This document shows, in pieces, positions 5,993-52,622 of a DNA stretch of 64,000 nucleotides. The DNA is from Mycolicibacterium sp. YH-1 (GTDB lineage: Bacteria; Actinomycetota; Actinomycetes; Mycobacteriales; Mycobacteriaceae). The translations under genes and the position numbers were made by a program. The DNA lies in assembly GCF_022557175.1 (NCBI RefSeq), contig NZ_CP092915.1:744001-808000 (forward strand), written 5' to 3'. Under the pieces are notes generated by a model, which was not told the DNA's origin, did not search any database, and worked only from the letters and a program-made list of their open reading frames with translations. The first letter of the stretch is position 1; each line of letters starts with the position of its first letter.

Positions 5993-8900
5993 ATGCAGGT
6001 TGACGACTGGACACTGCCTGTAACACGTGCACAGCTAGATATCTGGCTGGCGCAGGAAACTGCTCACTCGGGCACGGGGTGGCAGCTCGGCTTGTTCGTG
6101 AGGATCGATGGTGCGGTAGAACGAGATGCCCTGGAATGGGCCATCCGTCGAGTGATACAAGAGGCAGAGCCGGTCAGGGCCGCGTTCTCCGAGGTGGATG
6201 GCCAGGTCTTCCAGAGGGTGCTTGACCACCCGGATGTCGAGTTGGTCTTCCACGACCTGACCGGTTCTCGCGATCCCATGCAGGAAGCCCGCGAGGTGGC
6301 GTCCTCGATTCAACGCACGCTCATGCCATTGACCGGTCCCCTGTTCAAATTTGCACTGTTCCAGACGCAAGCCGAGGAATTCTGTCTGTTCGCGTGCTGC
6401 CACCACATCGTCCTGGATGGATCCGGTATTGCGCTGGTTGGCCATCGGATTGCATCTGTCTACTCGGCGGTCGTCGCTGGTGCACCCATTGACCCTGCAT
6501 TGTTCGGCTCGCTGTCTGACCTGGTTGACTGCGAATCGGAGTACGAGGCGTCCGCTGAGTATCTCGAGGATCAGGGGTATTGGAGTCGAAACCTTCCCCA
6601 GGAAGACGCACCAGATCGGCCGACCGCCGCCGCGGGCGACAGTGACTCGTTCTGGCCGTCAGCGCCGGTGCAACTGGATCCGGTGGTCCTTCGCGGGGCC
6701 GAGGAGTTGTCTGAAGCATGGAACGTCCCTCGATCAGCGGTCCTCACCGCCGCGTGCGCACTCCTGGTGCGTGGCTGGCGAGCCGAGGGCTCAGAGGTAG
6801 TACTCGACTTCCCCGTCAGCCGGCGTGTGCACCCCGCGCTGAAGACACTTCCCGGAATGGTGGCGGGGGTTGTCCCACTGGTGATTTCGGTGCCGCCGGA
6901 ATCCTCGGTTGCGAGTTTCTGTCAGCACGTCGACAGCCGGATACGGGAAGCCCTTCTGCATCAACGCTTCCCGGTTCACGCACTTGAACGCAGAGTCGAT
7001 TCCCACGGACCTGGCTGGCTCGCCAATCGGGTCAACGTCAACTTTCTGCCATCCACATTCACCTTGGACTTCGGTGGTGCGGCGGCGACGGCGGAATTGA
7101 CCAATGCCGGAATGGTGGGTGGCTTCGGGCTGATCTTCTCGGGCGCCGGCAGTCAGCTCTTTCTCAGCACCATGGGCACCGGGCAACCGTTCTCGAACTT
7201 TGAGGTCTCGGATTTGGCGAGACGGTTTGAGCGGGTGTTGGAGTCGATGGTGGTGGATCCGGGGCGGTTGTTGTCGTCGGTGGATGTGCTCGACGGGGCT
7301 GAGCGTGAGCGCTTGGATGGGCTCGGTCATCGTGCGGTGTTGACCGAGTCGGTGGCGGGGGTGTCGATTCCGACTCTGTTCGCGGCGCAGGTTCTGCACG
7401 CACCGGATGCGGTGGCGGTCAGTTGTGCGGGTGCCTCGTTGTCGTATCGGGAGTTGGATGAGGCCTCGAATCGGTTGGCGCACTTGTTGGTGGGGTTGGG
7501 TGCGGGGCCGGGTCGGTGTGTGGCGTTGTTGTTGAATCGGTCGGTTGAGGCGATCGTGTCGATTCTGGCGGTGTTGAAGTCTGGTGCGGCGTATCTGCCG
7601 ATTGATCCGGCTCATCCTGATGCGCGGGTGCAGTTCATGCTCGCTGACGCGGCGCCGGTTGCGGCGATCACCTCGGCGGGTTTGGCGCATCGTTTGGCTG
7701 GGTGTGGGGTGGTGGTCGTTGATGTCGGGGATCGGCGTATCGGGGGGTGTCCCAGTAGTGGGTTGCCGGGTCCGGCTGCTGATGATGTCGCGCATGTCAT
7801 TTACACGTCGGGGACCACGGGTGTGCCCAAGGGTGTTGCGGTCACCCATCAGAATGTGACTCGGCTCTTCGAGGGTCTTGATGTGGGTGTGGTGTTGGGT
7901 CCGGGGCAGGTGTGGGCGCAGTGTTCGTCGTTGGCCTTTGACTTCTCGGTGTGGGAGATCTGGGGTGCGCTGCTGCATGGGGGCCGGTTGGTGGTGGTGC
8001 CCGAGGATCTGACGCGCTCTCCGCGGGATCTACAGGCCCTTCTCACACGTGAGCGGGTCAGTGTGTTGAGTCAGACCCCCTCAGCGGTGGGGATGCTGTG
8101 CCCGGATGGGTTGGAGTCGGCGGCGTTGATGGTGGCCGCCGAACCGTGCCCGCTCGATGTGGTGGACCGGTGGGCGCCGGGTCGGGTGATGATCAACGGC
8201 TATGGGCCGACGGAGACCACGGTGTATGCCACGATCAGCGCCCCGTTGGCTCCTGGTGCGGGTGTGGTGCCGATCGGATTGCCGGTGCCGGGTGCGGCGT
8301 TGTTTGTGCTGGATGGCTGGTTGCGGGAGGTGCCGGTCGGGGTGGTCGGTGAGTTGTATGTGGCCGGTCGCGGTGTCGGGGTGGGTTATGTGCGGCGCCC
8401 GTCGTTGACGGGTTCACGGTTTGTGGCCTGCCCGTTCGCACCCGGCACCCGGATGTATCGGACCGGGGATCTGGTGTCCTGGGGTGGCGATGGGCAGTTG
8501 CGCTATGCCGGCCGTGCTGATGAGCAGGTCAAGATCCGCGGTTACCGCATCGAGCTCGGGGAGATTCAAACAGCTCTGGCTGATCTGGAGGGTGTGGCGC
8601 AGGCGGTGGTGATCGTTCGGGAGGATCAGCCCGGCGACTTACGTCTCGTCGGCTACGTCACCGAGTCGGTCACTGGCACTGTGGATTCGGCGACGATACG
8701 CGCGGCACTGGCTGAGCGGCTTCCGGCTTATATGGTGCCCGCGGCCGTGGTGAGCCTGGAGGCCTTGCCGTTGACGGTCAACGGCAAGCTCGACAAGAAG
8801 GCGTTGCCGGCACCGGAGTACATCGATGTCGACCGGTACCGTGCTCCGAGCACTGCGACCGAGGAGATCCTGGCCGGCATCTACGCCCGGGTTCTGGGCC

Positions 8901-52622: not shown

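Follow-up and report, generated by a model that had tools for sequence, protein, structure and literature searches.

Introduction

In the laxaphycin/scytocyclamide cluster of Scytonema hofmannii, two distinct NRPS pathways, both with a TE of their own, set out from the same upstream enzymes, and the authors describe the cluster as branched and as an exception to colinearity (PMC7524897); the shared part is the loading PKS, which supplies one common residue, and the two NRPS branches lead to rings of 11 and 12 residues. The locus analysed here differs from that cluster in three respects: (i) five NRPS modules are shared; (ii) the cut falls in the C-A linker; and (iii) the two arms are paralogous. 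For the vatiamides of Moorena, Moss et al. reportedly found in 2019 that a single PKS-NRPS front half can be joined by any of several NRPS terminators; that is a cyanobacterial hybrid line, whereas ours is an all-NRPS mycobacterial line with a TE on each arm. A likeness also exists with the mycobacterial glycopeptidolipid synthetases Mps1/Mps2, a two-protein lipopeptide line with an MbtH-like gene in front, whose product is D-Phe-D-alloThr-D-Ala-L-alaninol (PMC3537567). In contrast to Mps1/Mps2, the line in our locus would specify nine residues, ends in TEs instead of reductive release, and has no C-like match at the place of an E domain; our own profiles held no E, but searching the window with the Pfam condensation profile gave no additional C-like region at such a place.

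Among the matches listed in a search of open-access titles and abstract openings, no report describes a line that forks where a C-A pair is split and whose arms are paralogous and each end in a TE. Branching itself is known; what would be new here is that the line divides within the C-A linker and that its competing terminators are paralogues. The C-A linker is also where modules are exchanged in NRPS engineering (the exchange-unit approach), and it seems that lines have been severed and rejoined at the same place in evolution, with the trans partner carrying a readable sequence signature. Such a fork would be a natural system in which to measure the tolerance of the donor C domain, docking and the competition between partners, and its analysis has led us to propose genes for fortuitine and to predict sister lipopeptides in the same strains.

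Organization of the NRPS genes

The window, by which we mean the whole stretch of 64,000 nt that was analysed, spans positions 744001-808000 of the single-contig 7.27-Mb genome of Mycolicibacterium sp. YH-1. It carries three NRPS genes, head to tail on the + strand and each an uninterrupted single ORF, preceded by an MbtH-like gene, a predicted A-domain helper (5715..5939, +, GTG start inferred), identified by a PF03621 match of 101.1 bits at 5724-5876 of the window (contig 749724-749876). NRPS1 (5993..25585, +; 6530 aa), the proposed shared front half, is ordered C-A-T, C-A-MT-T, C-A-T, C-A-T, C-A-MT-T, C and thus contains six C, five A and two N-MT domains. NRPS2 (25582..39087, +; 4501 aa), the first terminating arm, reads A6-T, C-A7-T, C-A8-MT-T, C-A9-T, TE, and its start overlaps the stop of NRPS1 (ATGA). 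NRPS3 (39129..52622, +), the second terminating arm, follows the same order (A-T, C-A-T, C-A-MT-T, C-A-T, TE); its mechanical ORF extends over 38892-52622, with the true start likely to be either ATG 39129 or GTG 39135, 41 or 47 nt past the NRPS2 stop. Given the overlap between NRPS1 and NRPS2 and the shortness of this gap, a single transcript is likely.

The domain order was obtained with profiles built from the window, and Pfam concurs on the kinds and numbers of domains. The architecture that the first-pass annotation had assigned in common to NRPS2 and NRPS3 is borne out by both methods, as is its description of the two arms as lacking a C domain at the start and ending in an intact TE. 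The TEs, both recognised by Pfam, lie at 38158..39084 (NRPS2, +) and 51714..52622 (NRPS3, +), and each contains the GWSxGG, LVLLDAAL and THYEMF motifs with Ser, Asp and His in place; Pfam found no reductase in either protein. The other motifs checked are likewise present throughout the three proteins: HHxxxDG in 12/12 C domains, A3, A5, A7 and A8 in all 13 A domains, the carrier serine in all 13 T domains, and the MT motifs in NRPS1, NRPS2 and NRPS3 alike. The N-methyltransferase cores (PF08242, + strand) map to modules 2 (12098..12394) and 5 (22811..23116) of NRPS1 and to module 8 of both NRPS2 (33625..33924) and NRPS3 (47178..47474).

Two C domains of NRPS1 stand apart. The first (6011..7315, +) diverges from the others, with a PF00668 score of 145.9 bits against 287.6-330.7 for the window's 11 other C domains, and is presumably a lipid-starter C. 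The last, C6 (24242..25567, +; PF00668 318.9 bits; HHIAADG), is unpaired and would be the fork point: NRPS1 ends five codons past its Pfam match. NRPS1 has this one C domain to spare, and neither NRPS2 nor NRPS3 has one at the N-terminus.

The first-pass annotation had read this arrangement as a forked line, in which NRPS1 can pass its pentapeptide to either NRPS2 or NRPS3 and two nine-residue lipopeptides result. The free C domain on NRPS1, the two intact C-less arms and their related linkers support this reading at the sequence level, as do the low dN/dS between the arms and the recurrence of the layout in related genomes, and we consider it probable; that both arms receive the pentapeptide, and that two products form, is our inference. 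In the forked line, NRPS1 would make the acylated pentapeptide and hand it over through its free C-terminal C domain, with C6 packing in trans against the bound arm's first A domain and so rebuilding the split C-A platform. The bound arm would add four residues, one of them N-methylated, its TE would release the chain, and the carboxyl so freed may be a substrate for methylation by an ICMT-like enzyme.

The trans C-A linker

The end of NRPS1 and the starts of both arms fall inside what would otherwise be a C-A linker. By linker comparison, the trans C-A linkers are TADLSRRLSSMDLLDECEYARLDEWGNRATLA in NRPS2 (25585..25680, +) and AADFTRRLSSMDLLDEYEYARLDGWSNRAVLI in NRPS3 (39138..39233, +). Initially described as nearly identical, they are in fact only similar (75% over 32 aa); in eight other forks the identity between the linkers of the two arms is 69-91%.

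Arm starts share a heptad of the form TADL[ST]RR, a motif that we defined after viewing 19 arms. Among 31 distinct arm starts, position 4 is Leu in 27 (the exceptions being Phe in NRPS3, Met in G021, Val in L025 and Thr in L028) and positions 5-7 are [ST]R[RH] in all, while among 113 anchored cis C-A linkers position 4 is Pro in 85 and never Leu, Met or Phe, and [ST]R[RH] occurs in 12; the sequences behind both counts are related and hence not independent. The class allowed at position 4 was later widened to accommodate Phe (NRPS3) and Met (G021), and because this was done post hoc we report the figure for Leu alone. The arm starts derive from a list of 34 rows, less a fragment of M. setense NRPS1, an antisense frame in L021, and L026, which lies on the same contig as porcC46; they include L028, a contig of metagenome origin whose line is not established. 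The cis set derives from 156 in-chain C-A junctions, of which 43, mostly cis linkers of MT modules, were not anchorable. Other lines (G085, G276, G363, G225 and G132), two reductase ORFs and truncated arm starts were left out of the linker count. With AADFTRR, NRPS3 misses the consensus at two positions, and no other arm whose protein is complete departs as far; we count this against the fork, and nowhere is the case for the window genome weaker. As a sign that both arms accept the chain, the linker signature is indirect.

Distribution of the forked layout in the genus

Relatives of the arm TEs were found at 26 loci in named genomes and in 158 of 396 same-genus genomes (E <= 1e-30; up to five candidates in each genome were scored), and the locus was read in 12 genomes and then in nine more. 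Forks with three whole proteins are present in the window genome, M. houstonense, M. septicum, G296, G327, G348 and G124. Two further forks contain a broken protein: in G239, arm 1 is in two frames (3727 and 383 aa; L084-L086), the result of either an assembly error or decay, and in M. setense NRPS1 is broken and short in the draft. Eight genomes besides the window's therefore have the layout, six of them with whole proteins, one with an arm in two frames and one with a broken front protein. Together with three partial forks from drafts, these nine loci bring the number of forked genomes to at least 12 of the 396, which tempers the earlier view that such forks would be unusual. In this count G231, G272, G299, G336, G128 and G141 are equated, on matching coordinates, with M. 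houstonense, M. septicum, M. setense, M. peregrinum, URHD0025 and M. porcinum.

The partial forks are those of M. peregrinum, where an arm end is followed by an arm start; of strain URHD0025, with the same succession plus a second TE-ended arm; and of M. porcinum, whose draft has three motif-bearing arm starts (C43, C45 and C46) and three TE ends (C45, C46 and C48) on the pieces L104, L106 and L107 (C43, C45, C46) and L014 (C48). From this draft assembly, a three-way fork in M. porcinum is possible. Single-arm lines were seen, in the stretches read, in M. frederiksbergense, CBMA 247, G279, G021, M. senegalense, ACS4331 and G298, the last three with peculiarities: NRPS1 is in two overlapping frames in M. 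senegalense and one module shorter in ACS4331, and the arm of G298 is incomplete.

Several candidates were discarded. The long ORFs of G276, G363, G085 and G225 have domain orders that differ from those expected of fused versions of the forked line, and the locus read in G132 belongs to another line. Matches to A domains on the + strand past the arms in L013, L014 and L021 were not accepted as extra arms, with scores of 61-70 and the linker motif absent.

Arms elsewhere in the genus can have genes of their own beside them. In M. septicum and G124 an MbtH-like sequence lies in front of the second arm, and in URHD0025 one lies in front of an arm start; M. houstonense, M. septicum and G348 have an ICMT-like gene close to each of their arms. 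A broader reading, to which we give slightly less than an even chance, is that of a plug-in NRPS, with a conserved five-module donor, a universal C-A socket and one to three swappable four-module terminators that would travel as cassettes, in some cases together with an MbtH and a carboxyl methyltransferase of their own. If so, one strain would make several lipopeptides at once and could change one without touching the other.

Comparison and origin of the two arms

NRPS2 and NRPS3 are 78.7% identical as proteins, with a dN of 0.137, a dS of 0.571 and a dN/dS of 0.24. Compared with the single arm of G279, NRPS2 gives a dN/dS of 0.20 and NRPS3 one of 0.19, and the NRPS1 proteins of the two genomes also give 0.19. 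In four between-species pairs the values are 0.16-0.19 for second arms, 0.11-0.14 for first arms and 0.10-0.15 for NRPS1; that second arms elsewhere are slightly higher than first arms counts against the fork. The second arms of G348 and G124, which are 66.7% identical, may be non-orthologous.

These values bear directly on the strongest of the alternatives, namely that only NRPS2 works with NRPS1 and that NRPS3 is a spare copy, silent or barely used. Relatives do cope with a single arm, and no arm with a complete protein has a heptad more divergent than that of NRPS3, but we nevertheless regard this explanation as unlikely: NRPS3 has kept every motif checked and about 4,500 codons free of stops, the dN/dS between the arms is 0.24, where one neutral arm would by our reckoning push it towards 0.6, and the second arms of other species are likewise constrained.

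A smaller chance still attaches to the possibility that the A-T module of NRPS3 (or of NRPS2) starts a chain of its own, which would be released as a tetrapeptide. An A-T first module is a usual C-less form of initiation; both proteins, however, begin in an arm-type C-A linker, which an initiation module would have no need to retain, and the C domain of NRPS1 would be left with one acceptor or none.

As to the origin of the fork, a 479-nt tract in the last C domain is identical between the arms (35116-35594 in NRPS2, 48681-49159 in NRPS3), likely the product of recent gene conversion, and dS is 0.28 across the first 200 codons, docking end included, against 0.57 overall, which suggests gene conversion across the docking end as well. 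Half of the 12 domains (A6, C7, C8, A8, C9 and TE) are mutually closer between NRPS2 and NRPS3 than to any of the other arms in the comparison; for A7 the distances are about equal, and T6, T7, T8, A9 and T9 are not closer between the two. With only these six clearly closer, the history is not one of clean tandem duplication. In the six other forks compared, neighbour genes separate the arms, which are adjacent in the window; the single-arm genome G279 has the window's 3' neighbours (ICMT-like, HSP90 and SfLAP). Most likely, the window fork arose when an arm was duplicated in tandem in this lineage and parts of it were later converted or replaced; in a possible alternative history the duplication is older and conversion has homogenised the copies. 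The relatives with the TE nearest the window's (M. frederiksbergense, CBMA 247, G279 and G021) are single-armed, with one TE match each in the scan of the 396 genomes and no second arm in the stretches read, so that the window's own duplication is known from one genome only. Since trees of single domains conflict, we give no number of independent fork origins.

A second NRPS line in the same genome

The genome contains a second NRPS line that is also cut at a C-A boundary (~1567296-1600042; L111-L112), with an MbtH-like sequence immediately 5'. Its 8162-aa protein (~1.57-1.59 Mb) ends in a free C domain, and directly 3' lies a 2758-aa partner that is C-less, starts with an A domain and has the heptad TADASRR. 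The claim that NRPS1 is alone in ending with an unpaired C domain thus holds within the window and fails for the genome as a whole. The tail of the 8162-aa protein (...RVLEAMTGEVQES) resembles that of NRPS1 (...RVLVAMTADVGDRS), and a second free C domain of this kind could in principle feed NRPS3, which we count against the fork. That NRPS3 in fact serves this other line is nonetheless highly improbable, since the 8162-aa protein has a C-less partner of its own next to it, whereas NRPS3 is ~0.8 Mb distant, lies beside NRPS1 and resembles NRPS2.

Elsewhere in the genus, M. frederiksbergense C17 (L109-L110) encodes an NRPS of 6139 aa whose five modules include a single MT and which matches a reductase family close to its end, a further lipopeptide-like line. 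Neither this ORF, with five modules and an MT, nor the reductase-ended ORFs of M. senegalense and M. septicum, with no same-strand NRPS ORF upstream in the stretch read, were identified as Mps. With no glycopeptidolipid synthetase to anchor the Ala and Thr codes, the residue names used below rest on general pocket-code assignments and on the residue pattern of fortuitine.

Predicted products

Pocket codes were taken from the alignment. At residue 6, NRPS2 has DYWSVGMVHK and NRPS3 DVWSVAMVHK, which differ at 2 of the 9 positions read; at residue 7 both have DAESLAGVCK; at residue 8 the codes differ at one position and both read an X like that of NRPS1, with N-methylation; and at residue 9 DFWTLGAVYK in NRPS2 faces DFWSVGVMWK in NRPS3, with 5/9 read positions different. 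Since the codes differ at residues 6 and 9, the two products would differ at one or two residues. DYWSVGMVHK has 7/10 positions in common with the Thr code, and DAESLAGVCK has 7/10 in common with a Lys code; A6 of NRPS2 is accordingly predicted to take Thr, and A7 a basic residue. That both arms take the pentapeptide and make the same product, the second adding dose only, would agree with the codes at residues 7 and 8 but has very little chance of being right, in view of the differences at residues 6 and 9 and of the arms of M. houstonense and M. septicum, which differ even in the presence of an MT.

Fortuitine, a long-known lipopeptide of M. fortuitum, has the structure acyl-Val-MeLeu-Val-Val-MeLeu-Thr(Ac)-Thr(Ac)-Ala-Pro-OMe. 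In several fork genomes the modules of NRPS1 and arm 1 together follow a pattern that agrees with this structure. In G348 and G124 the NRPS1 codes read X-MeY-X-X-MeY with identical repeats, and NRPS1 and arm 1 together reproduce the fortuitine pattern of nine residues with N-methylation at 2 and 5 and the repeats 1=3=4 and 6=7. The likeness extends to M. houstonense, G296 and G327, apart from small differences between the codes of modules 2 and 5; in M. septicum and G239 it is the code of module 4 that deviates. Arm 1 reads Z-Z-U-V, with Z near DYWSVGMVHK, in all eight forks besides the window's, and N-MT domains at positions 2 and 5 only, as in fortuitine, are found with arm 1 in M. houstonense, M. 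septicum, G296, G327, G348 and G124. The window line departs from fortuitine in having an extra N-MT at 8 in addition to those at 2 and 5, a Thr-like code at 6 in NRPS2 only, and a different code at 7 in both arms. Its product family would be fortuitine-like lipopeptides, with the window line as a variant. Among the matches listed from open-access titles and abstract openings, none reported genes for fortuitine.

Neighbouring genes

Acyltransferase-like genes, which could acetylate Thr, lie beside the arms in 6 of 12 genomes compared, all six of them forked; none was found grouped beside the arms in the other five genomes or in the window, a further difference between the window line and fortuitine. 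The one such gene tested gave a weak WS/DGAT match and no Pfam match at 0.01.

Downstream of NRPS3, on the - strand, lies a gene for an ICMT/PEMT-family membrane methyltransferase (52633..53313; PF04191, PF04140; NCBIfam match under the cut-off), a candidate for formation of the C-terminal methyl ester, with ICMT-like homologues in the stretches from 8 of 12 genomes. The next two genes, also on the - strand, are an HSP90 gene adjoining the NRPS cluster (53397-55349), a homologue of which sits between the two arms in M. houstonense and M. septicum, and a gene for an SfLAP-family protein (55396..56211; PF11139, 163 bits), a candidate for lipopeptide export. Finally, a Pks2-type polyketide synthase (57320-63661, -; NF041183, 3511.8 bits) could belong either to the lipopeptide pathway or to a neighbouring lipid locus, and a methyltransferase gene lies beside it.
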